Shown: in pieces, positions 1 through 64,000 of the stretch | Layout of the letters: every line of letters begins with the position of its first letter | How positions within the stretch are numbered: position 1 is the first letter of the stretch | Source: Arcuatula senhousia | Taxonomy: Eukaryota > Mollusca > Bivalvia > Mytilida > Mytilidae | Assembly (NCBI GenBank): GCA_963971305.1 | Contig: OZ020304.1 | Coordinates: forward strand, 248,001 to 312,000 | Direction: 5' to 3' | Length of the DNA: 64,000 nt | Position numbers and translations under genes: made by a program | The notes under the pieces: model-generated | Databases searched by the model: none | Seen by the model: the letters and a program-made list of their open reading frames with translations, nothing else | Told to the model about the DNA's origin: nothing

Positions 1-1158
1 ATACACCAATACACATTGAGGTCAGTTACTGTTAATATACACCAATACACATTGAGGTCAGTTGCAATTGATATACACCAATACACATTGAGGTCAGTTG
101 CTATTGATATACACCAATACACATTGAGGTCAGTTACTGTTAATATACACCAATACACATTGAGGTCAGTTGCTATTGATATACACCAATACACATTGAG
201 GTCAGTTACTATTAATATACACCAATACACATTGAGGTCAGTTACTGTTAATATACACCAATACACATTGAGGTCAGTTACTGTTAATATACACCAATAC
301 ACATTGAGGTCAGTTACTGTTAATATACACCAATACACATTGAGGTCAGTTACTATTAATATACACCAATACACATTGAGGTCAGTTACTATTAATATGC
401 ACCAATACACATTGAGGTCAGTTACTGTTAATATACACCAATACACATTGAGGTCAGTTACTGTTAATATACACCAATACACATTGAGGTCAGTTACTAT
501 TAATATACACCAATACACATTGAGGTCAGTTACTGTTAATATGCACCAATACACATTGAGGTCAGTTACTATTAATATTCACCAATACACATTGAGGTCA
601 GTTACTGTTAATATACACCAATACACATTGAGGTCAGTTGCTGTTAATATACACCAATACACATTGAGGTCAGTTGCTATTGATATACACCAATACACAT
701 TGAGGTCAGTTGCTATTAATATACACCAATACACATTGAGGTCAGTTACTGTTAATATACACCAATACACATGGAGGTCAGTTACTATTAATATACACCA
801 ATACACATTGAGGTCAGTTGCTATTGATATACACCAATACACATTGAGGTCAGTTACTATTAATATACACCAATACACATTGAGGTCAGTTACTATTAAT
901 ATACACCAATACACATTGAGGTCAGTTACTATTAATATACACCAATACACATTGAGGTCAGTTACTATTAAACACCAATACACATTGAGGTCAGTTACTA
1001 TTAATATACACCAATACACATTGAGGTCAGTTACTATTAAACACCAATACACATTGAGGTCAGTTACTATTAATATACACCAATACACATTGAGGTCAGT
1101 TACTATTAATATACACCAATACACATTGAGGTCAGTTACTATTAAACACCAATACACA
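1..1158 (+). repeat. Array A: 36 bp minisatellite, about 32 copies, with a donor-like GAG|GTCAGT in each unit
   Basis: Head-to-tail 36 bp units (consensus ACACATTGAGGTCAGTTACT plus a 16 bp TGTTAATATACACCAA-type remainder). Variation is mostly a few A/G and T/C changes. Three late units lack 3 bp (near 970, 1038 and 1144). The array is cut by the left window edge and stops abruptly at about 1158. Each unit holds TTGAG|GTCAGT, which looks like an exon end plus 5' splice site, as in arrays B-D of the same gene. Because 36 is a multiple of 3, the array is open for 382 codons, but that ORF is low-complexity and I do not call it a gene. The parent exon would lie left of the window. Confidence 0.93.
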
Positions 1159-1615
1159 GGCTAGTAATATAAAACTGGGTCTCATCAAATTGTTTAAAGA
1201 GTTTTGGAGCATCATTTGTATTGAAGAAAGTAAAACTGAGTAAAATATTGTAAAAAATAAGATTCTGTCTCTAAAAATAGATGTTACATGATTGGTTCAT
1301 TAAAATTTGATGTCAATCTGCAAATAAAAGTGTAAAAGCATTAAAGAATTAGGAGATTAGGACTTCCATGATAAAACATAATTTATGTACATCTGCTCTG
1401 ATAGATTCCTGCAACTACCCACAATGCAAAAGAAACAGGAAGAAGGGATCTGTATCATCTCATATCACTTGTGGAAAAGAACTTTTTATCTAAGAAAATT
1501 GTTATTTAGTTCTATTTTAATTTGTTTCAACTTTAAAAATTATAATCTTGGAAATTTTAATTAACTTGAATGTTACATTTCTATCTAGCTGAAATGTATA
1601 TGTATGTATATATGG

Positions 1616-1813
1616 GGCTCCCGCAGGGTACCCCCCTCAGGTTGCGAGGTCGCTTTAAAAAAGGGCATGAGGTCGCAAGGTCGCTTTTAAAAGGCATATT
1701 TTGGCGGAGGTCGCAGGTCGTTTTTGGGCTTAGGTCCATTTTATGAAGTGAAGGTCGGAAGTCGCCCTTAAAAAGCCCTCAGGTCGCAGGTCGTTTTTAA
1801 CCCTGCGGGAGCC
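1616..1813. mobile_element. 198 bp MITE-like element with 14 bp terminal inverted repeats
   Basis: The left end GGCTCCCGCAGGGT (1616-1629) is matched by its reverse complement at 1800-1813. The similarity continues outward into ATATATG on both sides with one mismatch. The interior is a degenerate series of AGGTCGC/GAGGTCGC motifs separated by A-runs, much more GC-rich than its surroundings. There is no coding capacity. It lies in the intron before the PKD exon. The rest of 1159-1954 shows nothing recognisable. Confidence 0.7.
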
Positions 1814-1954
1814 ACATATATATCAATTTCATTATTAATAATTACTAGAACATAAAGTCTCTCTTCATTGACCAATTATTTGTCTGTTCCATTCAATCTT
1901 TATTGATGTTTGATTTATTCCACATCTCATTATTTTCTATTGCTCTTATTTCAG

Positions 1955-2081
1955 GGAGAGAGGACACCTTATTTAAAAGTTTCCAATTTGAAGAAAGGAA
2001 TCTTCAGGTTTACATTAAGAGTAGTTGATAAGAAGGGCCAGGCTTCAGAGGATACTGTACAAGTCACAGTACTTAACCATG
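1955..2081 (+). CDS. Gene 1 exon: C-terminal half of a PKD-like domain
   Basis: The acceptor CTTATTTCAG ends at 1954 and the donor is ATG|GTAGTA at 2082. The 127 nt enter in phase 0 and leave in phase 1. The encoded stretch includes LKVSNLKKGIFRFTLRVVD and then DTVQVTVLNH, the 'G.y.F.L.V.D..G..s.dtv.VtV' pattern of the last strands of PKD-type domains, as in KIAA0319-like proteins. The first half of the domain must lie in an upstream exon. There is no start codon or signal peptide here. Confidence 0.75.
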
Positions 2082-2114
2082 GTAGTAACACTATTATACT
2101 TAAAATTAAAATTG

Positions 2115-2785
2115 AAAACAATAGAATATGGAATACGTGCCAGAAAGACACGATCCACATATGGAAATGATTTTGATAAATGTGCAAAAGCTAAATTTCA
2201 CTGCATGTGAAGCACTTTTCTGGATTAACCTTCATTAGACACGCTAGGAGTAAAAAACTTGGAAAACCTGTAGAATATTTGATTTGATAAAACAAAAACA
2301 GATGCCAAAAATATTACAACAATGACCAAACAGTAAATTTATCAATTTTTAAAGAAATAGCCAAACGTTGTCAAATTTTGGAACTATGTAAACTGTGTCT
2401 TTCCAACACATATTCCAGTACTCGAAAATATATAAGAGCATACAACTGAAGCACAGGGAAGCTTTCTACGACCTCCACACGGCACTAAAGCCAAACTTTG
2501 AAATAATATTAAAAACAAAAGAATATGGAATATGTGCCAGAAAGACACGATCCACATATGGAAATGATTTTGATAAATGTTTTACTTCGTGTGAAGCACT
2601 TTTCTGGATTAACCTTCATTAGACACGCTAGGAGTAAAAAACTTGGAAAACGGTAGAATATTAGATTTGATCAAACAAAAACAGAAGCCAAAAATATTAC
2701 AACAATGACCAAACAGTAAATTTATCAGTTTTTAAAGAAATAGCTAAACGTTGTCAAATTTTGTAACTATCTTAACTATTGTCAT
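2115..2785 (+). repeat. Tandem duplication of an intron segment (about 270 bp, offset about 398 bp)
   Basis: The segment around 2123-2397 (GAATATGGAATACGTGCCAG... to AAACGTTGTCAAATTTT) recurs at about 2521-2785 with few changes. About 120 bp of unrelated sequence sits between the copies. It is non-coding and lies between the PKD exon and the first sushi exon. Confidence 0.8.
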
Positions 2786-2896
2786 GATTGTTTTACATCT
2801 ACACAGTTTTATTTAAGAGTTTAGTTTACATCTAGCAGAATCATGCATATGTTTTTGGGTCATCCTATGTTTTTAGCCATATTCCTGTATTTTTAG

Positions 2897-3058
2897 TTGA
2901 TGAGTGTGGTGACCCCCCAAAGATAAACCATGGGACAGCGGTACGAACACTATATAACCAAGTGACGTACAAATGTGATGATGGGTACCACAAGGATAAT
3001 GAAATATCTATACTGATATGTGAAGGGCAAAGATGGCTGGGGAATACCCCTATATGTA
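2897..3058 (+). CDS. Gene 1 exon: sushi domain 1
   Basis: The acceptor GTATTTTTAG ends at 2896. The exon ends in TATATGTA with a perfect GTAAGT donor at 3059. It is a symmetric phase 1-1 module, as usual for sushi exons. The four canonical cysteines are present: DECGDPP, YKCDDGY, LICEGQRW and NTPIC, with the Trp before the last Cys. The last 60 nt or so are the coding part of the 75 bp unit of array B, so the functional donor is the first of nearly forty near-identical donors. Confidence 0.85.
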
Positions 3059-5935
3059 GTAAGTACACCCAGTATGAAATATCTATACTTATATGTGAAG
3101 GGCAGCGATGGCTGGGGAATACCCCTATATGTAGTAAGTACACCCAGTATGAAATATCTACACTGATATGTGAAGGGCTAAGATGGCTGGGGAATACCCC
3201 TATATGTAGTAAGTACACCCAGTATGAAATATCTATACTAATATGTGAAGGGCAGCGATGGCTGGGGAATACCCCTATATGTAGTAAGTACACCCAGTAT
3301 GAAATATCTATACTAATATGTGAAGGGCAGCGATGGCTGGGGAATACCCCTGTATGTAGTAAGTACACCCAGTATGAAATATCTATACTGATATGTGAAG
3401 GGCAAAGATGGCTGGGGAATACCCCTATATGTAGTAAGTACACCCAGTATGAAATATCTACACTGATATGTGAAGGGCAGCGATGGCTGGGAATACCCCT
3501 ATATGTAGTAAGTACACCCAGTATGAAATATCTACACTGATATGTGAAGGGCAGCGATAGCTGGGAATACCCCTATATGTAGTAAGTACACCCAGTATGA
3601 AATATCTATACTAATATGTGAAGGGCAGCGATGGCTGGGGAATACCCCTATATGTAGTAAGTACACCCAGTATGAAATATCTATACTAATATGTGAAGGG
3701 CAGCGATGGCTGGGGAATACCCCTGTATGTAGTAAGTACACCCAGTATGAAATATTTATACTAATATGTGAAGGGCAGCGATAGCTGGGGAATACCCCTA
3801 TATGTAGTAAGTACACCCAGTATGAAATATCTATACTAATATGTGAAGGGCAGCGATGGCTGGGGAATACCCCTATATGTAGTAAGTACACCCAGTATGA
3901 AATATCTATACTAATATGTGAAGGGCAGCGATAGCTGGGGAATACCCCTATATGTAGTAAGTACACCCAGTATGAAATATTTATACTAATATGTGAAGGA
4001 CAAAGATGGCTGGGGAATACCCCTATATGTAGTAAGTGCACCCAGTATGAAATATCTATACTAATATGTGAAGGGCAGCGATGGCTGGGGAATACCCCTA
4101 TATGTCGTAAGTACACCCAGTATGAAATATCTACACTAATATGTGAAGGGCAGAGATGGCTGGGGAATACCCCTATATGTAGTAAGTACACCCAGTATGA
4201 AATATCTATACTAATATGTGAAGGGCTAAGATGGCTGGGGAATACCCCTATATGTAGTAAGTACACCCAGTATGAAATATCTACACTAATATGTGAAGGG
4301 CAGAGATGGCTGGGGAATACCCCTATATGTAGTAAGTACACCCAGTATGAAATATCTATACTAATATGTGAAGGGCTAAGATGGCTGGGGAATACCCCTA
4401 TATGTAGTAAGTACACCCAGTATGAAATATCTACACTGATATGTGAAGGGCAGTGATGGCTGGGGAATACCCCTTTATGTAGTAAGTACATCCAGTATGA
4501 AATATCTATACTAATATGTGAAGGACAAAGATGGCTGGGGAATACCCCTATATGTAGTAAGTACACCCAGTATGAAATATCTACACTGATATGTGAAGGG
4601 CAGCGATAGCTGGGAATACCCCTATATGTAGTAAGTACACCCAGTATGAAATATCTACACTAATATGTGAAGGGCAGCGATGGCTGGGGAATACCCCTAT
4701 ATGTAGTAAGTACACCCAGTATGAAATATCTATACTGATATGTGAAGGGCAGCAATGGCTGGGGAATACCCCTATATGTAGTAAGTACACCCAGTATGAA
4801 ATATCTACACTAATATGTGAAGGGCAGCGATGGCTGGGGAATACCCCTATATGTAGTAAGTACACCCAGTATGAAATATCTATACTAATATGTGAAGGGC
4901 AGCGATAGCTGGGGAATACCCCTATATGTAGTAAGTACACCCAGTATGAAATATTTATACTAATATGTGAAGGACAAAGATGGCTGGGGAATACCCCTAT
5001 ATGTAGTAAGTGCACCCAGTATGAAATATCTATACTAATATGTGAAGGGCTAAGATGGCTGGGGAATACCCCTATATGTAGTAAGTACACCCAGTATGAA
5101 ATATCTACACTGATATGTGAAGGGCAGCGACGGCTGGGGAATTCCCCTATATGTAGTAAGTACACCAAGTATGAAATATCTATACTAATATGTGAAGGGC
5201 AAAGATGGCTGGGAATACCCCTATATGTAGTAAGTACACCCAGTATGAAATATCTACACTGATATGTGAAGGGCAGTGATGGCTGGGGAATACCCCTTTA
5301 TGTAGTAAGTACATCCAGTATGAAATATCTATACTAATATGTGAAGGACAAAGATGGCTGGGGAATACCCCTATATGTAGTAAGTACACCCAGTATGAAA
5401 TATCTACACTGATATGTGAAGGGCAGCGATGGCTGGGGAATACCCCTATATGTAGTAAGTTCACCCAGTATGAAATATCTATACTGATATGTGAAGGGCA
5501 GCGATAGCTGGGGAATACCCCTATATGTAGTAAGTACACCCAGTATGAAATATCTACACTAATATGTGAAGGGCAGTGATGGCTGGGGAATACCCCTATA
5601 TGTAGTAAGTACACCCAGTATGAAATATCTATACTGATATGTGAAGGGCAAAGATGGCTGGGGAATACCCCTATATGTAGTAAGTACACCCAGTATGAAA
5701 TATCTACACTGATATGTGAAGGGCAGTGATGGCTGGGGAATACCCCTATATGTAGTAAGTACACCCAGTATGAAATATCTACACTGATATGTGAAGGACA
5801 AAGATGGCTGGGGAATACCCCTAAATGTAGTAAGTACACCCAGTTAATACCCCTTAATTAAGGATAGGGATTCCCATTTATATGTGAAGGGCAGCGATGG
5901 CTGGGGAATACCCCTATATGTAGTAAGTACACCTT
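2997..5935 (+). repeat. Array B: 75 bp minisatellite of sushi-1 exon end + 5' splice site, about 39 copies
   Basis: Each unit is about 60 nt of exon (TGAAATATC... to ...TATATGTA) followed by GTAAGTACACCCAGTA of intron. The first unit is inside the exon and the rest follow without a break to about 5848. A stray copy at 5881-5932 lies between two TTCCCAT-containing fragments. Nearly all units keep GTAAGT. At 75 bp the reading frame is preserved: the exon frame stays open from the exon through about seven units, until a G is lost near 3489. Each unit would add 25 residues with two cysteines. Some units have a stop from TGGCTGG changing to TAGCTGG. Confidence 0.95.
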
Positions 5936-6265
5936 TATAAGGGATGTGGATTCCCATGGACGACTGGTCAACAAAGATAACAGACAAGTAAATTTGATTG
6001 CCAATGATTTGGAAATTTTGCATTGATCATGTTGATTTCTGTAATGAATTTATACGTCAGTTTATATGCATTTTATTCCAAACTTTATTGCAATAATTTT
6101 ATTCCACATCTACGAAACCCAAATGTTGCAAGATGGGGCATTATGTCTTTTGGACATATTCCTGTTTCATTTATGTTTAAGGTGATAAGAACTCTCATTG
6201 TTTAGTCTGCTGTTTATGTTGAAAGGTCCTTATGAGGTTTAATTGTAATACTTTTATTTATTCAG

Positions 6266-6517
6266 GACCACAAGAACCCCTAGTCATTAAGTCCTGTACA
6301 AAGCCTCATCAGATTCCACATGGAACATGGAAGGCCACAAACTATTTCATCTACAACCTTGGATATCAAGAAAATGTCTTTGAACCAGGAACTCAGGTTA
6401 CGTACAGCTGTGATTCCAGTGATTATGAGTTGCTTGGCAACCCAGTGATAGAATGTCAACAAGATATGAAATGGTCAAGACAGCATCCTGTTTGTATCAA
6501 GAAGTCAGATTTAATTG
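6266..6517 (+). CDS. Gene 1 exon: sushi domain 2
   Basis: The acceptor TTTATTCAG ends at 6265. I place the donor at TTAATTG|GTCAGT (6518) because it gives phase 1, needed by the next exon. It encodes a CCP module with cysteines in IKSCTKPH, YSCDSSD, IECQQD and PVCIKK, and the expected Gly and Trp (KWSRQHPVC). This module is longer than sushi 1. Other GTCAGT donors in the following 39 bp repeats have the same phase and would only lengthen the exon in frame. The exact donor therefore needs RNA evidence. Confidence 0.8.
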
Positions 6518-7192
6518 GTCAGTATATCAACTGTATTAAGAAGTCAGTTTTAATTGGTCAGTATATCAACTGTATTAAGAAGTCAGATTTAAATGGTCAG
6601 TATAATGGCTGTATAAAGAAGTCAGATTTATTTGGTCAGTATACTGACTGTATCAAGAAGTCAGATTTATATGGTCAGTATAATGGCTGTATAAAGAAGT
6701 CAGATTTAAATGGTCAGTATAATGGCTGTATAAAGAAGTCAGATTTAATTGGTCAGTATAATGGCTGTATAAAGAAGTCAGATTTATTTGGTCGGTATAA
6801 TGGCTTTATAAAGAAGTCAGATTTAATTGGTCAGTATATCAACTGTATTAAGAAGTCAGTTTTAAATGGTCAGTATAATGGCTGTATAAAGAAGTCCGAT
6901 TTAAATTATATGGTCAGTATACTTACTGTATCAAGAAGTCAGATTTATTTGGTCAGTTTACTGACTGTATCAAGAAGTCAGTTTTAAATGGTCAGTATTA
7001 ATGGCTGTATAAAGAAGTCAGATTTATTTGGTCAGTATAATGGCTGTATCAAGAAGTCAGATTTATATGGTCAGTATAATGGCTGTATAAAGAAGTCAGA
7101 TTTATTTGGTCAGTATAATGACTGTATAAAGAAGTCAGATTTATATGGTCAGTATAATGACTGTATCAAGAAGTCAGATTTATATTGTCAGT
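6494..7192 (+). repeat. Array C, first block: 39 bp minisatellite of sushi-2 exon end + donor
   Basis: Units of about 39 bp read TGTATCAAGAAGTCAGATTT then AT(T/A)TGGTCAGTATAATGAC. They copy the last 24 nt or so of the sushi-2 exon plus about 15 nt of intron, including GGTCAGTA. The array keeps the frame (13 residues, CIKKSDLxGQYN-like) to about 6985. It is interrupted at 7193 by a MITE and resumes at 7521 and 8275. Confidence 0.93.
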
Positions 7193-7520
7193 CCCTATTT
7201 TTGTATATTGTGAGTTATCTCCCATTTGAAAAGTTATCTTATCTTTTCAGAAGGTATTTTATACTAGTTGCTGTGTGGATAAATAAGTTTTCCTGCAATT
7301 ATCTTTTAGTTTGTCAACAAATGTCCAAATGTAAAATATGATCATTTTGAAAAAGGTTTATAACATGTTTTCATGATTGAAAAGGGTATGCTAAGCCCTC
7401 TGAATAATATTTCGAAAAATTAAAACCTTTTTTTTCCCATTCATTGCAATGTAATATACTTACTGTAATGGAGGACAACTCTTGAAATTGGGAGATAACT
7501 CACTATTTACGTAAAAAGGG
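7193..7520. mobile_element. MITE inserted in array C (copy 1)
   Basis: The ends are inverted: the left end CCCTATTTTTGTATATTGTG, continuing into GAGTTATCTCCCATTTG, is mirrored on the right by GGGAGATAACTCAC and a terminal AAAAAGGG. The 328 bp interior is AT-rich and non-coding. Closely related copies lie at 7950-8274 and at 46928-47270 in a different gene, which supports a transposable family. Confidence 0.8.
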
Positions 7521-7949
7521 AATTAAGAAGTCAAATTTATATGGTCAGTATAATGACTATTAACAGGTCAGATTTATATGGTTAGTATAATGACTATTAA
7601 CAGGTCAGATTTATTTGGTCAGTATAATGACTGTATCAAGAAGTCAGATTTATATGGTCAGTATAATGACTGTATCAAAAAGTCAGATTTATATGGTCAG
7701 TATAATGACTGTATCAAGAAGTCAGATTTATATGGTCAGTATAATGACTGTATCAAGAAGTCAGATTTATATGGTCAGTATAATGACTGTATCAAAAAGT
7801 CAGATTTATATGGTCAGTATAATGACTGTATCAAGAGGTCAGATTTATATTGTCAGTATAATGACTGTATCAAGAAGTAAGATTTATATTGTCAGTATAA
7901 TGACTGTATCAAAAAGTCGGATTTATATGGTCAGTATAATGATTGTATT
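7521..7949 (+). repeat. Array C, second block: 39 bp units
   Basis: Same 39 bp unit as the first block, more uniform here (GATTTATATGGTCAGTATAA throughout). About eleven units run between two MITE copies. Confidence 0.92.
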
Positions 7950-8274
7950 CCCTATTTTTGTATATTGTGAGTTATCTCCCATTTGAAGAGTTATCTTACT
8001 TTTCCAGAAGGTATTTTATACTAGTTGCTGTGTGGATAAATAAATTTTTCTGCACTTATCTTTTAGTTTATCAACAAATGTCCAAATGTAAAATATGATC
8101 ATTTTGAAAAAGGTATATAACATGTTTTCATGATTGAAAAGGGTATGCTAAGCCCTCTGAATAATATTTCGAAAAATTAAAACTTTTTTCCCATTCATTG
8201 CAATGTAATATACTTACTGTAATGGAGGACAACTCTTGAAAATGGGAGATAACTCACTATTTACGAAAATAGGG
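7950..8274. mobile_element. MITE in array C (copy 2), part of a duplicated array + MITE segment
   Basis: Nearly identical to the element at 7193-7520 along its whole length, and flanked by the same array sequence at the same position in the unit. This points to duplication of array and MITE together (offset about 757 bp) rather than a second insertion. Confidence 0.8.
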
Positions 8275-8400
8275 AATTAAGAAGTCAAATTTATATGGTC
8301 AGTATAATGACTATTAACAGGTCAGATTTATATGGTAAGTATAATGACTGTATCAAGAAGTCAGATTTATATGGTCAGTATAACAACTGTATCAAGAAAA
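8275..8400 (+). repeat. Array C, terminal remnant: about three 39 bp units
   Basis: Short continuation of the 39 bp repeat after the second MITE. It ends about 35 bp before the acceptor of sushi exon 3. Confidence 0.85.
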
Positions 8401-8436
8401 AGATTATTGTTACCTAACTTCTTGTTTTAATTGTAG

Positions 8437-8646
8437 ATAAAGATTTCTATTGTCCCTCTGTGCCTCCAATCCCTAATGGCCAGTGCCAGTGTGATCTAAA
8501 CAAGAACATCAGTTTCTGTGAGCCATTCTATCTGACTATGTCTGTTCTTTGCTCATGTAACAAAGGCTACTGGCTGAGAGGAAGTGACCAGATGACATGC
8601 TCTGGGAAAGGAACCTGGAATACTGACCAACCCACCTGTATACCAG
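8437..8646 (+). CDS. Gene 1 exon: sushi domain 3
   Basis: The acceptor TTTTAATTGTAG ends at 8436. The donor CCAG|GTAGGT is at 8647. Phase 1-1, 210 nt. It has a sushi-type layout (FYCPSVPPIPNG, VLCSCNKGYW, MTCSGKG, TWNTDQPTC) but extra cysteines (QCQC, SFC, LCSC), so it may carry a non-standard disulphide. The last 30 nt or so are the coding part of array D. Confidence 0.85.
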
Positions 8647-11600
8647 GTAGGTAATATGGAACACTGACCAACCCACTTGTATACCAGGTAGGTAATATGG
8701 AACACTGACCAACCCACTTGTATACCAGGTAGGTAATATGGAACACTGACCAACCCACTTGTATACCAGGTAGGTAATATGGAACACTGACCAACCCACT
8801 TGTATACCAGTTAGGTAATATGGAACACTGACCAACCCACTTGTATACCAGGTAGGTAATATGGAACACTGACCAATCCACTTGTATACCAGGTAGGTAA
8901 TATGGAACACTGATCAACCCACTTGTATACCAGGTAGGTAATATGGAACACTGACCAACCCACTTGTATACCAGGTAGGTAATATGGAACACTGACCAAC
9001 CCACTTGTATACCAGGTAGGTAATATGGAACACTGACCAGCCCACTTGTATACCAGGTAGGTAATATGGAACACTGACCAACTCACTTGTATACCAGGTA
9101 GGTAATATGGAACACTGACCAACTCACTTGTATACCAGGTAGGTAATATGGAACACTGACCAACCCACTTGTATACCAGGTAGGTAATATGGAACACTGA
9201 TCAACCCACTTGTATACCAAGTAGGTAATATGGAACACTGACCAGCCTACTTGTATACCAGGTAGGTAATATGGAACACTGACCAGCCCACTTGTACACC
9301 AAGTAGGTAATATGGAACACTGACCAACCCACCTGTATACCAGGTAGGTAATATGGTACACTGACCAACCCACTTGTATACCAAGTAGGACATATGGAGC
9401 ACTGACCAACCCACTTGTATACCAGGTAGGTAATATGGAACACTGACCAACCCACTTGTATACCAGGTAGATAATATGGAACACTGACCAACCCACTTGT
9501 ATACCAGGTAGGTAATATGGAACACTGACCAACCCACTTGTATACCAGGTAGGTAATATAGAACACTGACCAGCCCACTTGTATACAGGTAGGTAATATG
9601 GTTCACTGACCAACCCACTTGTATACCAGGTAGGTAATATGGAACACTGACCAGCCCACTTGTATACCAGTTAGGTAATACGGAACACTGACCAGCCCAC
9701 TTGTATACCAGGTAGGTAATATGGAACACTGACAAACCCACTTGTATACCAGTTAGGTAATACGGAACACTGACCAGCCCACTTGTATACCAGGTAGGTA
9801 ATATGGAACACTGACCAGCCCACTTGTATACCAGTTAGGTAATACGGAACACTGACCAGCCCACTTGTATACCAGGTAGGTAATATGGAACACTGACAAA
9901 CCCACTTGTATACCAGGTAGGTAATACGGAACACTGACCAGCCCACTTGTATACCAGGTAGGTAATATGGAATACTGACCAACCCACTTGTATACCAGGT
10001 AGGTAATACGGAACACTGACCAACCCACTTGTATACCAGGTAGGTAATACGGAACACTGACCAACCCACTTGTATACCAGGTAGGTAATATGGAATACTG
10101 ACCAACCCACTTGTATACCAGGTAGGTCATATGGAACACTGACCAACCCACTTGTATACCAGGTAGGTCATATGGAACACTGACCAGCCCACTTGTATAC
10201 CAGGTAGGTAATACGGAACACTTACCAACCCACTTGTATACCAGGTAGGTAATACGGAACACTGACCAACCCACTTGTATACCAGGTAGGTAATATGGAA
10301 TACTGACCAACCCACTTGTATACCAGGTAGGTCATATGGAACACTGACCAACCCACTTGTATACCAGGTAGGTAATATGGAACACTGACCAACCCACTTG
10401 AATACCAGGTAGGTAATATGGAACACTGACCAATCCACTTGTATACCAGGTAGGTAATATGGAACACTGACCAACCCACTTGTATACCAGGTAGGTAATA
10501 TGGAACACTGACCAACCCACTTGAATACGGAACACTGACCAGCCCACTTGTATACCAGGAAGGTAATATGGAACACTGACCAACCCACTTGTATACCAGG
10601 TAGGTTATATGGAACACTGACCAACCCACTTGTATACCAGGTAGGTAATACAGAACACTGACCAACCCACCTGTATACCAGGAAGGTAATATGGAACACT
10701 AACCAACCCACTTGTATACCAGGTAGGTAATACAGAACACTGACCAACCCACCTGTATACCAGGAAGGTAATAAGGAACACTGACCAACCCACTTGTATA
10801 CCAGGTAGGTAAAATGGAACACTGACCAACCCACCTGTATATCAGGTAGGTAATATGGAACACTGACCAGCCCACTTGTATACCAGGTAGATAATATGGA
10901 ACACTGACCAACCCACTTGTATACCAGGTAGGTAATATAGAACACTGACCAGCCCACTTGTATACCAGGTAGGTAATATAGAACACTGACCAGCCCACTT
11001 GTATACCAGGTAGGTAATATGGAACACTGACCAACCCACTTGTATACCAGGTAGGTAATATAGACACTGACCAACCCACTTGTATACCAGATAGGTTATA
11101 TGGAACACTGACCAACCCACTTGTATACCAGGTAGGTAATATAGACACTGACCAACCCACTTGTATACCAGATAGGTAATATGGAACACTGACCAACCCA
11201 CTTGTATACCAGGTAGGTAATATAGACACTGACCAACCCACTTGTATACCAGGTAGGTAATATGGTACACTGACCAACCCACTTGTATACCGGGTAGGTA
11301 ATATGGAACACTGACCAACCCACTTGTATACCAGGTAGGTAATATGGAACACTGACCAACCCACCTGTATACCAAGTAGGTAATATGGAACACTGACCAA
11401 CCCACTTGTATACCAGGTAGGTAATACGGAACACTGACCAACCCACTTGTATACCAGGAAGGTCATATGGAACACTGACCAGCCCACTTGTATACAGGTA
11501 GGTAATATGGAACACTGACCAACCCACTTGTATACCAGGTAGGTAATATGGAACACTGACCAGCCCACTTGTATACCAGGAAGGTAATATGGAACACTGA

Positions 11601-16837: not shown

Positions 16838-16838
16838 A

Positions 16839-46910: not shown

Positions 46911-46927
46911 TTTTTGACCTGTCCATT

Positions 46928-52273: not shown

Positions 52274-55200
52274 GCAAACACTATCCTGATGCACATTGTA
52301 TTCTTGTGCTTTCTTTTTTCAGGCATACATGGCCATTCGACACTATCCTGATGCACATTATATTCTTGTGTTTTCTTTTTTCAGGCATACATGGCCATTC
52401 GACACTATCCTGATGCACATTGTATTCTTGTGCTTTCTTTTTTCAGGCATACATGGCCATTCAACACTATCCTGATGAACATTATATTCTTGTGTTTTTT
52501 TTTTTCAGGCATACATGGCCATTCAACACTATCCTGATGCACATTGTATTCTAGAGTTTTCTTTTTTCAGGCATACATGGCCATTCAACACTATCCTGAT
52601 GCACATTATATTCTAGAGTTTTCTTTTTTCAGGCATACATGGCCATTCGACACTATTCTGATGCACATTATATTCTTGTGTTTTCTTTTTTCAGGCATAC
52701 ATGGCCATTCGACACTATCCTGATGCACATTATATTCTTGTGCTTTCTTTTTTCAGGCATACATGGCCATTCAACACTATCCTGATGAACATTATATTCT
52801 TGTGGTTTTCTTTTTTCAGGCATACATGGCCATTCAACACTATCCTGATGCACATTGTATTCTAGAGTTTTCTTTTTTCAGGCATACATGGCCATTCAAC
52901 ACTATCCTGATGCGCATTGTATTCTTGTGTTGTTTTTTTTCAGGCATATATGTCCATTCAACATTCTCCTGATGCACATTATATTCTTGTGCTTTCTTTT
53001 CTCAGGCATACATGGCCATTCAACACTATCCTGATGCACATTATATTCTAGAGTTTTCTTTTTTCAGGCATACATGGCCATTCAACACTATCCTGATGCG
53101 CATTGTATTCTTGTGTTGTTTTTTTTCAGGCATATATGTCCATTCAACATTCTCCTGATGCACATTATATTCTTGTGCTTTCTTTTCTCAGGCATACATG
53201 GCCATTCAACACTATCCTGATGCACATTATATTCTTGAGCTTTCTTTTTTCAGGCATACATGGCCATTCAACACTATCCTGACGCACATTATATTCTTGT
53301 GTTTTCTTTTTTCAGGCATACATGGCCATTCAACACTATCCTGATGCACATTGTATTCTAGAGTTTTCTTTTTTCAGGCATACATGGCCATTCAACACTA
53401 TCCTGATGCACATTATATTCTTGTGGGGTTTTTTTTCAGGCATATATGTCCATTCAACATTCTCCTGATGCACATTATATTCTTGTGCTTTCTTTTCTCA
53501 GGCATACATGGCCATTCAACACTATCCTGATGCACATTATATTCTAGAGTTTTCTTTTTTCAGGCATACATGGCCATTCAACACTATCCTGATGCACATT
53601 ATATTCTAGAGTTTTCTTTTTTCAGGCATACATGGCCATTCAACACTATCCTGATGCACATTATATTCTTGAGCTTTCTTTTTTCAGGCATACATGGCCA
53701 TTCAACACTATCCTGACGCACATTATATTCTTGTGTTTTCTTTTTTCAGGCATACATGGCCATTCAACACTATCCTGATGCACATTGTATTCTAGAGTTT
53801 TCTTTTTTCAGGCATACATGGCCATTCAACACTATCCTGATGCACATTGTATTCTAGAGTTTTCTTTTTTCAGGCATACATGGCCATTCAACACTATCCT
53901 GATGCACATTATATTCTAGAGTTTTCTTTTTTCAGGCATACATGGCCATTCGACACTATTCTGATGCACATTATATTCTTGTGTTTTCTTTTTTCAGGCA
54001 TACATGGCCATTCGACACTATCCTGATGCACATTGTATTCTTGTGCTTTCTTTTTTCAGGCATACATGGCCATTCAACACTATCCTGATGAACATTATAT
54101 TCTTGTGGTTTTTTTTTCAGGCATACATGGCCATTCAACACTATCCTGATGCACATTGTATTCTAGAGTTTTCTTTTTTCAGGCATACATGGCCATTCAA
54201 CACTATCCTGATGCGCATTGTATTCTTGTGTTGTTTTTTTTCAGGCATATATGTCCATTCAACATTCTCCTGATGCACATTATATTCTTGTGCTTTCTTT
54301 TCTCAGGCATACATGGCCATTCAACACTATCCTGATGCACATTATATTCTTGTGTTTTCTTTTTTCAGGCATACATGGCCATTCAACACTATCCTGATGC
54401 GCATTGTATTCTTGTGTTGTTTTTTTTCAGGCATATATGTCCATTCAACATTCTCCTGATGCACATTATATTCTTGTGCTTTCTTTTCTCAGGCATACAT
54501 GGCCATTCAACACTATCCTGATGCACATTATATTCTTGAGCTTTCTTTTTTCAGGCATACATGGCCATTCAACACTATCCTGACGCACATTATATTCTTG
54601 TGTTTTCTTTTTTCAGGCATACATGGCCATTCAACACTATCCTGATGCACATTGTATTCTAGAGTTTTCTTTTTTCAGGCATACATGGCCATTCAACACT
54701 ATCCTGATGCGCATTGTATTCTTGTGGGGTTTTTTTTCAGGCATATATGTCCATTCAACATTCTCCTGATGCACATTATATTCTTGTGCTTTCTTTTCTC
54801 AGGCATACATGGCCATTCAACACTATCCTGATGCACATTATATTCTAGAGTTTTCTTTTTTCAGGCATACATGGCCATTCAACACTGTCCTGATGCACAT
54901 TATATTCTAGAGTTTTCTTTTTTCAGGCATACATGGCCATTCAACACTATCCTGATGCACATTATATTCTTGAGCTTTCCTTTTTCAGGCATACATGGCC
55001 ATTCAACACTATACTGACGCACTTTATATTCTTGTGTTTTCTTTTTTCAGGCATACATGGCCATTCAACACTATCCTGATGCACATTGTATTCTAGAGTT
55101 TTCTTTTTTCAGGCATACATGGCCATTCAACACTATCCTGATGCGCATTGTATTCTTGTGTTGTTTTTTTTTTCAGGCATATATGTCCATTCAACATTCT

Positions 55201-58200
55201 CCTGATGCACATTATATTCTTGTGCTTTCTTTTCTCAGGCATACATGGCCATTCAACACTATCCTGATGCACATTATATTCTAGAGTTTTCTTTTTTCAG
55301 GCATACATGGCCATTCAACACTATCCTGATGCACATTATATTCTTGAGCTTTCTTTTTTCAGGCATACATGGCCATTCAACACTATCCTGATGCACATTA
55401 TATTCTTGTGTTTTCTTTTTTCAGGCAAACATGGCCATTCGACACTATCCTGATGCACATTATATTCTTGAGCTTTCTTTTTTCAGGCATACATGGCCAT
55501 TCAACACTATCCTGACGCACAATATTATTCTTGAGTTTTCTTTTTTCAGGCATACATGGCCATTTGACACTATCCTGATGCACATTATATTCTTGAGTTT
55601 TCTTTTTTTCAGGCATACATGGCCATTTGACACTATCCTGATGCACATTGTATTCTTGTGCTTTCTTTTTTCAGGCATACATGGCCATTCAACACTATCC
55701 TGATGCACATTATATTCTTGTGTTTTCTTTTTTCAGGCATACATGGCCATTCGACACTATCCTGATGCACATTATATTCTTGAGATATCTTTTTTCAGGC
55801 ATACATGGCCATTCAACACTATCCTGATGCACATTGTATTCTTGAGTTTTCTATTTTCAGGCATACATGGCCATTCAACACTATCCTGATGCACATTATA
55901 TTCTTGAGTTTTCTTTTTTTCAGGCATACATGGCCATTCAACACTATCCTGATGAACATTATATTCTTGAGTTTTCTTTTTTCAGGCATACATGGCCATT
56001 CAACACTATTCTGATGCACATTATATTCTTGTGTTTTCTTTTTTCAGGCATACATGGCCATTTGACACTATCCTGATGCACATTATATTCTTGAGTTTTC
56101 TTTTTTTCAGGCATACATGGCCATTTGACACTATCCTGATGCACATTATATTCTTGAGTTTTCTTTTTTTCAGGCATACATGGCCATTCAACACTATCCT
56201 GATGCACATTATATTCTTGTGTTTTCTTTTTTCAGGCATACATGGCCATTTAACACTATCCTGATGCACAATATATTCTTGAGTTTTCTTTTTTTCAGGC
56301 ATACATGGCCATTCAACACTATCCTGATGCACATTATATTCTTGAGTTTTCTTTTTTTCCAGGCATACATGGCCATTCGACACTATCCTGATGCACATTG
56401 TATTCTTGAGTTTTCTTTTTTTCAGGCATACATGGCCATTCAACACTATCCTGATGCACATTATATTCTGGAGTTTTCTATTTTCAGGCATACATGGCCA
56501 TTCGACACTATCCTGATGCACATTATATTCTTGAGTTTTCTTTTTTTCAGGCATACATGGCCATTCAACACTATCCTGATGCACATTATATTCTTGAGTT
56601 TTCTTTTTTCAGGCATACATGGCCATTCAACACTATCCTGATGCACATTATATTCTTGTGTTTTCTTTTTTCAGGCATACATGGCCATTTGACACTATCC
56701 TGATGCACAATATATTCTTGAGTTTTCTTTTTTTCAGGCATACATGGCCATTCAACACTATCCTGATGCACATTATATTCTTGAGTTTTCTATTTTCAGG
56801 CATACATGGCCATTCAACACTATCCTGATGCACATTATATTCTTGTGTTTTCTTTTTTCAGGCGTACATGGCCATTCAACACTATCCTGATGCACATTAT
56901 ATTCTTGTGTTTTCTTTTTTCAGGCATACATGGCCATTCAACACTATCCTGATGCACATTATATTCTTGTGTTTTCTTTTTTCAGGCATACATGGCCATT
57001 CAACACTATCCTGATGCACATTATGTTCTTGAGCTTTCTTTTTTCAGGCATACATGGCCATTCAACACTATTCTGATGCACATTATATTCTTGTGTTTTC
57101 TTTTTTCAGGCATACATGGCCATTCAACACTATCCTGATGCACATTATATTCTTGTGTTTTCTTTTTTCAGGCATACATGGCCATTCAACACTATCCTGA
57201 TGCACATTATATTCTTGTGTTTTCTTTTTTCAGGCAAACATGGCCATTCGACACTATCCTGATGCACATTATATTCTTGAGCTTTCTTTTTTCAGGCATA
57301 CATGGCCATTCAACACTATACTGATGCACATTATATTCTTGAGCTTTCTTTTTTCAGGCATACATGGCCATTCAACACTATCCTGACGCACATTATATTC
57401 TTGTGTTTTCTTTTTTCAGGCATACATGGCCATTCAACACTATCCTGATGCACATTGTATTCTAGAGTTTTCTTTTTTCAGGCATACATGGCCATTCAAC
57501 ACTATCCTGATGCGCATTGTATTCTTGTGGTTTTTTTTTCAGGCATATATGTCCATTCAACATTCTCCTGATGCACATTATATTCTTGTGCTTTCTTTTC
57601 TCAGGCATACATGGCCATTCAACACTATCCTGATGCACATTATATTCTAGAGTTTTCTTTTTTCAGGCATACATGGCCATTCAACACTGTCCTGATGCAC
57701 ATTATATTCTAGAGTTTTCTTTTTTCAGGCATACATGGCCATTCAACACTATCCTGATGCACATTATATTCTTGAGCTTTCCTTTTTCAGGCATACATGG
57801 CCATTCAACACTATACTGACGCACTTTATATTCTTGTGTTTTCTTTTTTCAGGCATACATGGCCATTCAACACTATCCTGATGCACATTGTATTCTAGAG
57901 TTTTCTTTTTTCAGGCATACATGGCCATTCAACACTATCCTGATGCGCATTGTATTCTTGTGTTGTTTTTTTTTTCAGGCATATATGTCCATTCAACATT
58001 CTCCTGATGCACATTATATTCTTGTGCTTTCTTTTCTCAGGCATACATGGCCATTCAACACTATCCTGATGCACATTATATTCTAGAGTTTTCTTTTTTC
58101 AGGCATACATGGCCATTCAACACTATCCTGATGCACATTATATTCTTGAGCTTTCTTTTTTCAGGCATACATGGCCATTCAACACTATCCTGATGCACAT

Positions 58201-60444
58201 TATATTCTTGTGTTTTCTTTTTTCAGGCAAACATGGCCATTCGACACTATCCTGATGCACATTATATTCTTGAGCTTTCTTTTTTCAGGCATACATGGCC
58301 ATTCAACACTATCCTGACGCACAATATTATTCTTGAGTTTTCTTTTTTCAGGCATACATGGCCATTTGACACTATCCTGATGCACATTATATTCTTGAGT
58401 TTTCTTTTTTTCAGGCATACATGGCCATTTGACACTATCCTGATGCACATTGTATTCTTGTGCTTTCTTTTTTCAGGCATACATGGCCATTCAACACTAT
58501 CCTGATGCACATTATATTCTTGTGTTTTCTTTTTTCAGGCATACATGGCCATTCGACACTATCCTGATGCACATTATATTCTTGAGATATCTTTTTTCAG
58601 GCATACATGGCCATTCAACACTATCCTGATGCACATTGTATTCTTGAGTTTTCTATTTTCAGGCATACATGGCCATTCAACACTATCCTGATGCACATTA
58701 TATTCTTGAGTTTTCTTTTTTTCAGGCATACATGGCCATTCAACACTATCCTGATGAACATTATATTCTTGAGTTTTCTTTTTTCAGGCATACATGGCCA
58801 TTCAACACTATTCTGATGCACATTATATTCTTGTGTTTTCTTTTTTCAGGCATACATGGCCATTTGACACTATCCTGATGCACATTATATTCTTGAGTTT
58901 TCTTTTTTTCAGGCATACATGGCCATTTGACACTATCCTGATGCACATTATATTCTTGAGTTTTCTTTTTTTCAGGCATACATGGCCATTCAACACTATC
59001 CTGATGCACATTATATTCTTGTGTTTTCTTTTTTCAGGCATACATGGCCATTTAACACTATCCTGATGCACAATATATTCTTGAGTTTTCTTTTTTTCAG
59101 GCATACATGGCCATTCAACACTATCCTGATGCACATTATATTCTTGAGTTTTCTTTTTTCCAGGCATACATGGCCATTCGACACTATCCTGATGCACATT
59201 GTATTCTTGAGTTTTCTTTTTTTCAGGCATACATGGCCATTCAACACTATCCTGATGCACATTATATTCTGGAGTTTTCTATTTTCAGGCATACATGGCC
59301 ATTCGACACTATCCTGATGCACATTATATTCTTGAGTTTTCTTTTTTTCAGGCATACATGGCCATTCAACACTATCCTGATGCACATTATATTCTTGAGT
59401 TTTCTTTTTTCAGGCATACATGGCCATTCAACACTATCCTGATGCACATTATATTCTTGTGTTTTCTTTTTTCAGGCATACATGGCCATTTGACACTTTC
59501 CTGATGCACAATATATTCTTGAGTTTTCTTTTTTTCAGGCATACATGGCCATTCAACACTATCCTGATGCACATTATATTCTTGAGTTTTCTATTTTCAG
59601 GCATACATGGCCATTCAACACTATACTGATGCACATTATATTCTTGTGTTTTCTTTTTTCAGGCATACATGGCCATTCAACACTATCCTGATGCACATTA
59701 TATTCTAGAGTTTTCTTTTTTTCAGGCATACATGGCCATTCAACACTATCCTGATGCACATTATATTCTTGAGTTTCCTTTTTTCAGGCATACATGGCCA
59801 TTCAACACTATCCTGATGCACATTATATTCTTGTGTTTTCTTTTTTCAGGCATACATGGCCATTTGACACTATCCTGATGCACAATATATTCTTGAGTTT
59901 TCTTTTTTTCAGGCATACATGGCCATTCAACACTATCCTGATGCACATTATATTCTTGTGTTTTCTTTTTTCAGGCATACATGGCCATTTGACACTATCC
60001 TGATGCACAATATATTCTTGAGTTTTCTTTTTTTCAGGCATACATGGCCATTCAACACTATCCTGATGCACATTATATTCTTGAGTTTTCTTTTTTCAGG
60101 CATACATGGCCATTCAACACTATACTGATGCACATTATATTCTTGTGTTTTCTTTTTTCAGGCATACATGGCCATTCAACACTATCCTGATGCACATTAT
60201 ATTCTAGAGTTTTCTTTTTTCAGGCATATATGTCCATTCAACACTATCCTGATGCACATTATATTCTTGTGTTTTCTTTTTTCAGGCGTACATGGCCATT
60301 CAACACTATCCTGATGCACATTATATTCTTGTGTTTTCTTTTTTCAGGCATACATGGCCATTCAACACTATCCTGATGCACATTATATTCTTGTGTTTTC
60401 TTTTTTCAGGCATACATGGCCATTCGACACTATCCTGATGCACT
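52274..60444 (+). repeat. Array G: about 62 bp minisatellite of 3' splice site + exon-7 start, about 130 copies
   Basis: Each unit is CATTATATTCTTGTGTTTTC + TTTTTTCAG (pyrimidine tract and AG), then GCATACATGGCCATTCAACA + CTATCCTGATGCA, the first 33 nt of exon 7. The functional exon is the last unit (60410), where CTTAAAG replaces CATTATA. T-run length varies, so units are 60-64 bp. Minor forms (GCATATATGTCC, GCAAACATGG, GCGTACATGG, ATTCGACAC) mark higher-order structure: 54,620-56,830 recurs at 57,420-59,630 with an offset of about 2802 bp. The exon itself has the ATTCGACAC form, also present in scattered copies. The many short ORFs on both strands are by-products. Confidence 0.97.
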
Positions 60445-60526
60445 TAAAGATTTCAATAAAGCTATTGAGCTGAATGCACCCATTAAGACCCACTTCCTAA
60501 GAGGAGTTGTCCATTTACTGTTAGAA
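60410..60526 (+). CDS. TTC13-like exon 7: TPR
   Basis: The acceptor TTTTCTTTTTTCAG ends at 60409; the donor is TTAGAA|GTAAGT at 60527. Phase 0-0, 39 codons: AYMAIRHYPDALKDFNKAIE, LNAPIKTHFLRGVVHLLLE. It is preceded by about 130 copies of its own acceptor and first 33 nt. Confidence 0.9.
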
Positions 60527-61317
60527 GTAAGTTTTGTTAAATACATTTAAGAAGTACAACATCTACATCATTATCAGATGAATATCCAATGTTAATTAGT
60601 CTGAGGGGTTTAAAATACAAGAATTCATTAAATGAAATAAAAGCAGTAGAAAAAGAAAATGTAAGAAATATATGTCAACTTTGGTAATCTTTCCCAATTA
60701 ATGTAATGCTGTTGACTTTTGCTTGGTATCTTCTGATACAAGAGGTTGAATAAAGTTGTAAATGCATGTAAAACAAAATGAAATAGTTGACTTTGATCAA
60801 TGCTTTGTTGAAAATTGATCATTTATTTTAATTGAAAAAATGAAAATAATTTTTCTTAAGTTTACATAATTATACACCTGCTTTGAAGACGAGTGGAGTA
60901 TACTGGTAAACTGATTTAGTTCTGTCCTTCTTTCTGTCTGCCTGCAACATACCTTTCATAACAGATTTCTCAGCAACTTAAATTCACAAGGACTTGATAT
61001 TTAGTATGAGGTCCTTTATAAGAGTGTAAAGAGTCTAGGTCTGTCGGACATTTCTACACCCTGTTTACAGACTTAGTCAAATTTCAACATTACTGGTCAA
61101 TTATTGAAAAGTTTTGTAACATTTTCTTAGCAACTATTCCTAACAGGGACTTTGGAATATGACTTTAGTATATATACATGTATGAGGTCCTTTGTGGCGA
61201 GTACCCAAATTAGGTCTGTCACATATATTCTTTCTGTTTACCCACTTAGTTGGTTTGGGGATAGCAGGATAGTATACTGAGTGAGCAGTGGCTTACTGAT
61301 TCCTTGTTTTTTTTCAG
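60527..61317 (+). other. TTC13-like intron 7 with a degenerate core-repeat element
   Basis: 60940-61290 has two diverged units (ATAACAGATTTCTCAGCAAC, ...GACTTGATATTTAGTATGAG) and the tail GGGGATAGCAGGATAG...ACTGAGTGAGCAG, related to the remnant in gene 1's last intron. Confidence 0.55.
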
Positions 61318-61431
61318 AATTTTGCAGATGCAGAACGAGATTTTAAAACAACATTAGATAAAGAAAGTTCTACATACATCACAAATTTGTTTCATCTGGG
61401 TATAGCACAGTATTACAGAGGAAGAATAAGG
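61318..61431 (+). CDS. TTC13-like exon 8: TPR
   Basis: The acceptor TTTTTTTTCAG ends at 61317; the donor is ATAAGG|GTAAAA at 61432. Phase 0-0. It encodes NFADAERDFKTTLDKESSTY and ITNLFHLGIAQYYRGRIR. Confidence 0.88.
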
Positions 61432-62353
61432 GTAAAACAGCACACATTCTTATGACCTTATAACTTCATTTTAAGGTATATACATTTGTACAAATGACAC
61501 TGTCTCACATTCATAGCAACCAAAACCAAGTACATGCATGTGAAAATCTAATCACCAATCAGTAGTTGAAATTTCTACACAAGTTCTCTGGCCTTTTCAT
61601 GTTTTAGGATACTGTATAATCATTTATTTTCGTGGGGATGCATTTTGTGGTTCAGAGCTAAAAACTGAATTGGAGGGGACAAATTTTCTTGAATACCTAA
61701 TTTTGTTATATGCTTATCACCTACATATTCTAAATTACGGGGATTGAATTTTGTGGATTTTTTACCAACAAAATAAATGAAATTAAATCCCCCACAAATA
61801 TTTCTCCTTCTACCGTATTTCTTTATATTTTTATGTCCTTTTGACAGAAAATGTTGTGATGACAGCTATCTTGGGATGGAGAAAGCCTTTAATCCACTCC
61901 TGACTGTGGCAGAACTTTTATGTTCCTCTGTCTAAAATTTGTTATTCCACATCCTCATGAATAGTTCTCTTGGTTTTTATAAAACTTGACGTGAAGCTAG
62001 TACATGAAGATTTGCATAGGAAATTTCATATTGTTCTCAGATATTGAAGGGAGATAATTTGACTAAAATTGAGATTTGCAGAGCATAATTCTCCTTTGTC
62101 TGATTTTGATGAAACTTAATATTAGGGAGATGTGTGTACAGAACATTCAGAATTATATATCATCATTCAGGGGTGATAACTGATCTTTAATTTTTACAAT
62201 TAAGAATCCAATATGGAACAGATGGTATCCCCAGTAAAGCTCTGATGCTGATTGGGACATGATTTGAAGTCCAATCTTCCTTTTTGTTCGAAAGATTTGT
62301 ATTGATTTCACTGTTTTGTTGTAAATCTGTCATTTAATCAACATGTTTTACAG
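61432..62353 (+). other. TTC13-like intron 8
   Basis: No gene or clear element seen in this stretch. Confidence 0.5.
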
Positions 62354-62436
62354 AATGCTATAGAAGTGTTCAAGGAAGTGTTAAAGGCCCAGCCTGATCA
62401 TATTGATGCATGTACCAGCGCTGGGCAGGCTTATAA
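62354..62436 (+). CDS. TTC13-like exon 9: TPR
   Basis: The acceptor TGTTTTACAG ends at 62353; the donor is CTTATAA|GTAAGT at 62437. Phase 0 in, phase 2 out. It encodes NAIEVFKEVLKAQPDHIDAC and TSAGQAYK. Confidence 0.88.
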
Positions 62437-62457
62437 GTAAGTATAAAACAAACAAGT

Positions 62458-62753
62458 ATAGTAGTGTAGGGAAGCCTGGGTTGCCAAGTGGTCTAAGGCA
62501 CTGGTTTAAATACCCCACTATTGACCACTAGACCAATCACCTCTCTAGTGGTGTTTGAGTCCTGTTTGTATTGAACAAAAAAGGGACTTCCCGAAATGTA
62601 TGTGATTAGGTTTGTCAGTTACTTGCTAAAGGTCGGTGGTTTCCTCCAGGTACTCCAGTTTCCTTAACCAATAAAACTGATGGCCCTACATGGCCTAGGT
62701 GCGTCATTAAAGGACATTTAATACCAACACACACACACACATAGTAGTGTAGG
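62458..62753 (+). mobile_element. tRNA-derived SINE with a perfect 13 bp target-site duplication
   Basis: The body is 62471-62740. The head TTGCCAAGTGGTCTAAGGCA is an A box of Leu-tRNA type, and GTGTTTGAGTCC is a B box about 55 nt on. A conserved-looking core follows (GGTGGTTTCCTCCAGGTACT, CCAATAAAACTGATGG), then an (AC)n tail. ATAGTAGTGTAGG flanks both sides (62458-62470 and 62741-62753) without a mismatch, showing a recent retrotransposed insertion in sense orientation, 21 bp after the exon 9 donor. The core resembles what I remember of widespread mollusc V-SINE/Meta-type elements. Confidence 0.85.
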
Positions 62754-63040
62754 CTGACTTATATGTAAGACATAACAACCTCTTGGACTTGTCTGTTACT
62801 AAGTGCTGTTCCATAAACAATTACATTGTCCAAGATCCCCCAACCAATATAAAAAATCATCACACACTCATAGCAAAATGCATTTTAACCCCCACCACCA
62901 GCATAAAAATATAAAAATGGCATCCTAACTTTCCAATGTGGCTTTAATTAGGACAACCCTAACAGAAATTATCTTTTACTGAAACTTAAGCCTTTAATGC
63001 TAGAACATTCAAACTTTGAAAAAGAAAAAATACATCTAAA

Positions 63041-63410
63041 GAGAGTGAAGTTTAATATTGATTTTCTTATTTGAGAGAGGTTGGAAATCTACATGCACAG
63101 AAAGGAAAGTTTAACACTGATTTTGTTATTTTATTGAGCTTGGAGATCTAGTTCAAGGAATGAGATGTTAGATGTTGTTTTTTGTTTTTTTACAGAGCTC
63201 GTACCCCTACATGCTGTGTGAGGGACATTTAACATTGTTTTTGTTATTTTAGAGAGCTTGGAAATCTACGTGCTGCAACGGGGAAGTTTAACATTGTTTT
63301 TGTTATTTAAGAGAGCTTGGAAATCTACGTGCTGCACGAGGGAAGTTTAACATTGTTTTTGTTATTTTAGAGAGCTTGGAAATCTACGTGCTGCACGAGG
63401 GAAGTTTAAC
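63041..63410 (+). repeat. Array H: 59 bp repeat of 3' splice site + exon-10 start, about six copies, decaying away from the exon
   Basis: Unit CATTGTTTTTGTTATTTTAG + AGAGCTTGGAAATCTACGTG + CTGCACGAGGGAAGTTTAA. The functional acceptor is the last (63371). The copies at 63312 and 63253 are nearly identical to it, 63196 is diverged, and 63134 and 63074 are heavily diverged with lost AGs. One near copy has TTTAAG in place of TTTTAG. Confidence 0.88.
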
Positions 63411-63512
63411 AGATCTCTAGAGATTAATCCGAACCATACCCTTACTCTACTACTCAGGGGAAATATGCATTACTACAGCGGGGATCCAGTCAGTGCCTTA
63501 GAAGATCACCAA
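63371..63512 (+). CDS. TTC13-like exon 10: TPR
   Basis: The acceptor GTTATTTTAG ends at 63370; the donor is CACCAA|GTAAGT at 63513. Phase 2 in, phase 0 out. It encodes ELGNLRAARGKFNRSLEINP, NHTLTLLLRGNMHYYSGDPV and SALEDHQ. It is flanked by arrays on both sides. The gene continues beyond the window. Confidence 0.88.
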
Positions 63513-64000
63513 GTAAGTGGCTACATTCCACTAGTGGGTGGCACAAATTACCAAGTAAGTGGCTACATTCCACCAGTGGGTGGCACAAATTACCAAGTAA
63601 GTGGCTACATTCCACCAGTGGGTGGCACAAATTACCAAGTACCAGTAAGTGGCTACATTCCACCAGTGGGTGGCACAAATTACCAAGTAAGTGGCTACAT
63701 TCCACCAGTGGGTGGCACAAATTACCAAGTAAGTGGCTACATTCCACCAGTGGGTGGCACAAATTACCAAGTAAGTGGCTACATTCCACCAGTGGGTGGC
63801 ACAAATTACCAAGTAAGTGGCTACATTCCACCAGTGGGTGGCACAAATTACCAAGTAAGTGGCTACATTCCACCAGTGGGTGGCACAAATTACCAAGTTA
63901 GTGGCTACATTCCACCAGTGGGTGGCACAAATTACCAAGTAAGTGGCTACATTCCACCAGTGGGTGGCACAAATTACCAAGTAAGTGGCTACATTCCACC
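63505..64000 (+). repeat. Array I: 42 bp repeat of exon-10 end + donor, at least 12 copies, cut by the window edge
   Basis: Unit TTACCAA + GTAAGTGGCTACATTCCACC + AGTGGGTGGCACAAA. The exon contributes only about 7 nt (TCACCAA in the parent) and the intron about 35. One unit has a 6 bp insertion (near 63640) and one has the donor changed to GTTAGT (63894). The units are otherwise almost identical. Because 42 is a multiple of 3, the two long minus-strand ORFs here are by-products. Confidence 0.95.

Follow-up and report, generated by a model that had tools for sequence, protein, structure and literature searches.

A stretch of 64,000 nucleotides from the mytilid bivalve Arcuatula senhousia (assembly GCA_963971305.1, contig OZ020304.1, positions 248,001 to 312,000 of the forward strand), which we call the window, holds eight tandem arrays whose every unit consists of an exon edge, its splice site and the adjoining intron (units 31-79 bp, 5-148 copies). 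They occupy 8 of the 33 splice junctions that we modelled, six donors and two acceptors, in three unrelated genes: a sushi-domain membrane protein, a peripherin-like tetraspanin and TTC13. Minisatellite-like repeats across exon-intron boundaries have been named "mirages" in amphioxus (PMC3087553, PMC3902484), and judging by sequence the arrays of the window are bivalve mirages, more densely placed than those in the published passages and much higher in copy number. Arrays were called with Tandem Repeats Finder (TRF), domains were assigned by Pfam and the modelled exons were aligned with homologues. All our counts are taken within this one window of one haplotype. We believe that these mirages grew by ordinary DNA tandem duplication and unequal exchange and were tolerated since the exon-proximal splice site remains, a reading to which we give a probability of about 0.62.

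An earlier note on this stretch had listed the eight arrays and their junctions, and its coordinates agree with the TRF arrays and the gene models. It also stated that it knew of no description of such a system, and one exists. We therefore reject the idea that the arrays are a new, unnamed structure, since mirages have already been published. The amphioxus loci in the passages of those papers are Adh3, for which the name was given, the globins BflGb6 and BflGb9, troponin C and PGBD5 (PMC3087553, PMC3902484). The PGBD5 paper adds further repeats of 60 and 108 bp, along with troponin C (PMC3902484). Adh3 units of 10-72 bp (as cited in PMC3087553) resemble those of the window in length, while the globin units, at about 150-160 bp, are longer. 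The globin passages describe AG/GT signals in many but not all copies and copy numbers that vary by haplotype (6 and 3), and the globin reverse-transcription polymerase chain reaction and Adh3 data suggest that splicing is undisturbed (PMC3087553). Length instability between alleles, even somatic, is a further criterion for mirages. The anatomy in the window is the same, with 5' and 3' boundaries both hit in unrelated genes by unrelated units, and here too many but not all copies hold the splice dinucleotide. The differences are that the host is a mollusc, that arrays reach 148 copies and 8 kb against the 2-7 copies given for globin and PGBD5, and that 8 of 33 modelled junctions over three adjacent genes are affected.

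A search of the open-licence literature by titles and abstract openings found no report of splice-junction arrays in molluscs, which does not establish their absence. At a single human locus a minisatellite reportedly supplies multiple splice donor sites, to go by a title, and the gene is said to be 6-16/IFI6. Human segmental-duplication genes carry internal tandem repeats expanded at exon-intron boundaries with units of about 30 bp (PMC2812944). They differ from ours in having about 4 copies on average, a link to novel introns and alternative transcripts that retain the repeat in an exon. The Rogers model of intron gain by tandem genomic duplication (as cited in PMC3087553; see also PMC4974935) likewise duplicates DNA with splice signals, but it makes a new intron whereas the arrays of the window lengthen existing ones.

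The 33 modelled junctions (17 donors and 16 acceptors) all have GT or AG. An exon edge is copied in every one of the eight arrays, so the claim that each starts inside an exon stands, although the overlap is small in some (15 bp in A6, 5 bp in A9; Table 1). Each array reaches into its intron, downstream from a donor and upstream from an acceptor. The earlier note had counted it as evidence that the array of the minus-strand gene runs in the gene's own direction; this follows from the definition of such an array and adds nothing. The arrays take up 2,786 of 3,207 bp of the intron at A2, 6,020 of 6,472 at A4 and 8,133 of 8,776 at A7, and the two introns with A4 and A7 are 93% array sequence. The share is low at A6 (143 of 2,014 bp) and A8 (331 of 934 bp). 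At the left edge of the window, A1 was said to have the same donor-like form, and it does, with AGGTCAGT kept in each of its 32 copies. Read by eye in phase 0, the unit gives TPIHIE, which would precede the GERTPYL of the next exon, and the phase fits a phase-0 acceptor before 1955; homologues have VDMK or LDLR before the G. Because the readable unit is short, we regard A1 as only probably a ninth array of the same kind.

Table 1. Junction arrays, other repeats and gene models, in window coordinates (slash, exon-intron border)
Feature	Position	Strand	Unit and copies	Details
A1	1..1158	+	36 bp x32	donor-like GAG/GTCAGT; its exon upstream of window
A2	2999..5844	+	75 bp x38	60 bp exon + 15 bp intron; donor 3059
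A3	6493..7192	+	39 bp x18	donor 6518; resumes at 7525-7948 and 8279-8398
A4	8616..14666	+	41 bp x148	31 bp exon + 10 bp intron; donor 8647
A5	38433..41483	-	79 bp x~39	75 bp exon + 4 bp intron; donor 41408
A6	46748..46905	+	31 bp x5	15 bp exon overlap; donor 46763
A7	52277..60443	+	62 bp x131	acceptor array; authentic acceptor end 60409
A8	63040..63411	+	59 bp x6	acceptor end 63370; degenerate, 76% matches
A9	63508..64000	+	42 bp x12	5 bp exon; donor 63513; cut by window end
Elements splitting A3	7192-7523 and 7947-8277			332 and 331 bp as cut, 319 positions identical
Stop-codon array	16838..17050	+	31 bp x7	directly after gene 1 stop TAA 16835-16837
Seven intergenic arrays	19738-31022		periods 113, 182/363, 135, 174, 36, 169/337, 36 bp	
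Gene 1, sushi-domain membrane protein	1955..16837	+		5' end beyond window; six exons in one open frame to stop codon
Gene 1 exons	1955-2081, 2897-3058, 6266-6517, 8437-8646, 15119-15694, 16761-16837	+		
Gene 2, peripherin-2-like tetraspanin	41409..45332	-		modelled part, 3' part excluded; exons 45332-44764, 41637-41409
Gene 3, TTC13 orthologue	45675..63512	+		3' end beyond window
Gene 3 exons 1-5	45675-45939, 46662-46762, 48777-48852, 49301-49371, 50270-50335	+		
Gene 3 exons 6-10	51541-51633, 60410-60526, 61318-61431, 62354-62436, 63371-63512	+		

The exons join in frame, and at A2, A3, A4, A6, A7 and A8 the joins are spanned by alignments to animal homologues. Near A2 the linker has a gap of 1 residue in the alignment with homologue P0001 and of 5 in that with P0002, and upstream of the A6 join there is one of 2 residues. 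At the A3 edge PVCIKKSDLI/DKDFYC (slash at the join) aligns to PICLKRTELDGKDFYC. These alignments read as if the exon-proximal site were used at the six arrays. Only the exon end can be compared at A5 and A9 because each of these exons is the last one modelled, and at A5 the identity of that end to homologues is low.

The arrays are unlikely to lie where they do by chance. Our null is a random unit that is not wholly exonic and does not span a whole exon or intron, placed in 15,479 bp of introns (minus array copies) and 3,330 bp of exons. Such a unit contacts a junction with a probability of 0.058-0.143 depending on its length, 0.099 on average, so the probability that all eight of eight arrays do so is 6.5e-9. 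It becomes 7.7e-8 if the array behind the gene 1 stop codon is counted as a miss (8 of 9), 1.2e-6 if the two fragments of A3 are misses as well (8 of 11) and 1.6e-4 if the seven intergenic arrays are added (8 of 18). Were only 5 of 11 real, P would be 2.7e-3, and with full introns as the null space the P values drop at least a hundredfold. Counting therefore bears out the earlier judgment that chance placement is very unlikely, in a test that is post hoc, framed for a single window after the pattern had been noticed. The accompanying remark that the window has few other minisatellites was only partly right given the stop-codon array and the seven intergenic arrays (19.7-31.0 kb). The counts, 6 of 17 donors and 2 of 16 acceptors, are too small for us to claim a bias toward donors.

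The copies tell of separate histories. Mean column divergence is 0.4% in A9, whose copies are nearly identical to each other, 2.5-3.9% in A1, A2, A4, A5 and A7, and 7.7-12% in A3, A6 and A8; A8, at 12%, is old. This spread, together with unit sequences that are unrelated, means that the arrays are independent and of different age, and the independence claimed for the 31-79 bp units holds. Distinct sequences make up 24 of 38 full copies in A2, 66 of 148 in A4, 21 of 38 in A5, 46 of 131 in A7 and 3 of 11 in A9. The splice dinucleotide is kept in every copy of six arrays (A1 32/32, A2 38/38, A3 18/18, A6 5/5, A7 131/131, A9 12/12), in 38 of 39 copies of A5, in 120 of 148 of A4 and in 4 of 6 of A8.

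No coding constraint on the copies is detectable. The exon part of the copies has no third-position excess in the five arrays tested (codon-position permutation P: A2 0.34, A3 0.41, A4 0.47, A5 0.70, A7 0.50). Unit length is a multiple of three in 4 of 9 arrays where 3 are expected, and the other five break frame. Coding tandem repeats should show both multiples of three and coding constraint, and this is not what we find: unit length rules them out for A4-A8 and the missing third-position excess for A2-A5 and A7. Selection on each copy of the splice site finds no support either. Among adjacent column pairs the core dinucleotide ranks between 0.32 and 0.95 for conservation over the nine arrays, with many ties, and never falls in the most conserved tenth. 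The columns of this dinucleotide are comparatively variable in A4 (rank 0.95), where the exact AGGTAGGT is missing from 49 of 148 full copies.

The reading we favour begins with a short tandem duplication that would have straddled one exon-intron border. Unequal exchange or slippage would then have expanded it into the intron. Since donor arrays run downstream and acceptor arrays upstream, a splice site beside unique exon is always present. We infer that this exon-proximal site would be used, giving a normal mRNA from which the remaining copies are removed with the intron, and that the array would then evolve nearly neutrally. Duplications lying wholly within coding sequence would be removed by selection. 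The earlier note had offered, as one option, that only copies with a usable splice site are tolerated. In A4, the largest donor array, the 28 of 148 copies without GT contradict this, although seven of the other eight arrays keep GT/AG in all copies or all but one. A looser tolerance, under which one authentic site remains, fits.

Several observations weigh against tolerance of ordinary duplication as the whole account. Plain tolerance predicts that arrays lying only in introns should be commoner and does not itself explain the restriction to junctions, and among the modelled introns TRF finds no intron-only array with a score of at least 100 except the pieces of A3. A further difficulty is that six arrays have GT/AG intact throughout and A5 has it in all but one of its 39 copies, but many other columns of those arrays are equally invariant (ranks 0.32-0.90). 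The array ends, all compared by eye, give slippage some support in A4, where the exon's TGGAAT turns up again, as a 6-bp direct repeat, at the meeting of array and unique intron, and in A6, with 3 bp (CAA). The evidence for slippage is nevertheless weak because end homology in A2 and A5 is 0-1 bp, and the partial end copies of A3 and A7 (11 and about 18 bp) may result from later trimming. One possible addition to the favoured account is that exon DNA, with its higher GC, would seed arrays more readily, and that selection would spare only the seeds at exon edges. The idea comes from the GC content of exons, 0.414 against 0.317 in introns, and from the array directly behind the stop codon. GC as a seed bias is suggestive only: the share of intron windows that equal or exceed the unit in GC is 0.07-0.57 over nine arrays, and the unit is above most intron windows in only some of them. 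The alternative addition would be a process tied to the junctions.

Such a process could also stand as an explanation in its own right, with transcription stalling, R-loops, pre-mRNA-templated repair or exon-edge chromatin favouring duplication at junctions. We consider this unlikely. It would account for eight arrays at 33 junctions with none scoring at least 100 in intron interiors, the A3 fragments apart (the P of 1.2e-6 above), and for the fact that donors and acceptors on both strands are hit by unrelated units. The stop-codon array adjoins a coding edge without a splice site, which argues the other way. Spliced RNA is excluded as the template because the copies hold intron sequence, and pre-mRNA could still have served. 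The splicing- or RNA-coupled process proposed earlier finds no supporting evidence in the window.

It is quite improbable, in our opinion, that the arrays are kept for a selected function, whether extra sites strengthen exon definition or distal in-frame donors (A2, A3, A9) add peptide repeats. Reading on through the donor meets no stop for 160 codons in A2, for 156 in A3 and for 162 in A9 (to the window end), and the splice dinucleotides of six arrays are intact in all copies, as in A7 and A2. Against this stand the lack of codon-position bias in five arrays, the variable GT of A4 and the broken frame of the A4-A8 units. The A4 read-through ends after 2 codons and that of A2 stops at 3538, about 7 of its 38 copies in. 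After the A9 exon, scallop TTC13 continues with KCTEIDPEN, unlike the A9 repeat. That the assembler inflated or invented the arrays is very improbable: long arrays are hard to assemble and one amphioxus globin mirage is described as aberrantly assembled in a passage of PMC3087553, but the copies are heterogeneous, which argues against a simple artefact, A3 is split by inserted elements and nine units are unrelated, although copy numbers may still be wrong, with A9 nearly uniform.

The window extends an amphioxus-type structure to a protostome and, as far as our searches reach, to a new phylum, and its arrays have the length and number that statistics require. In mytilids amplification directed to junctions or exon edges may act genome-wide, so that a large share of borders carry or once carried mirages and much intron length consists of copied splice sites. 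In that case mirages would recur in several animal phyla from a common cause. This is a tentative and rather doubtful conjecture. If it holds genome-wide, bivalves would be a system for studying how one splice site is chosen among about a hundred near-identical ones, and whether exon edges are hotspots of tandem duplication, from which new introns have been proposed to arise. Rows of real-looking donors and acceptors could also mislead gene finders during annotation.

The gene 1 product has a PKD-like stretch and three sushi domains (Pfam), a transmembrane segment and a PPPY tail, and its best hit with a name is a complement factor H-like protein from Mytilus edulis (identity 58%, coverage 90%). 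The modelled exons of gene 2 form one open frame with exact exon ends and match Peripherin-2 at E 3.6e-43; among the 8 relatives found the top-scoring one stands at 49%, and the best named is peripherin-2-like of Pecten maximus at 46%. Gene 3 is 53% identical to TTC13 of Mizuhopecten yessoensis over 353 aligned positions. An Rfam scan of the window gave no matches at the gathering score. Six stretches fit a pattern for TTC13 relatives in viral contigs and none was confirmed. The seven intergenic arrays look transposon- or satellite-derived.

Some smaller features lie beside the arrays. Behind A2 there is an extra partial copy at about 5878-5930. It is flanked, within 5838-5935, by two diverged intron copies, GGGATTCCCAT and GTGGATTCCCAT (by eye), a layout that suggests a longer, earlier duplication of about 97 bp. 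The elements that split A3 resemble miniature inverted-repeat transposable elements, with terminal inverted repeats of 36-38 nt that are 83-92% complementary, and just behind A6, at 46925-47273, there is a diverged relative whose inverted repeat is 28 nt long. The A7 unit holds CTGAT, derived from exon sequence and placed upstream of the next copy's pyrimidine tract (by eye). We take this motif to be a branch-point-like match, and given its position before the tract one unit could be a complete acceptor. Finally, a 10-bp near-duplicate, TTTTGCAGAA (x1.9, score 31), lies at 61310-61328 over the acceptor of the TTC13 exon 61318-61431 and is possibly a minimal or decayed acceptor duplication, or chance.

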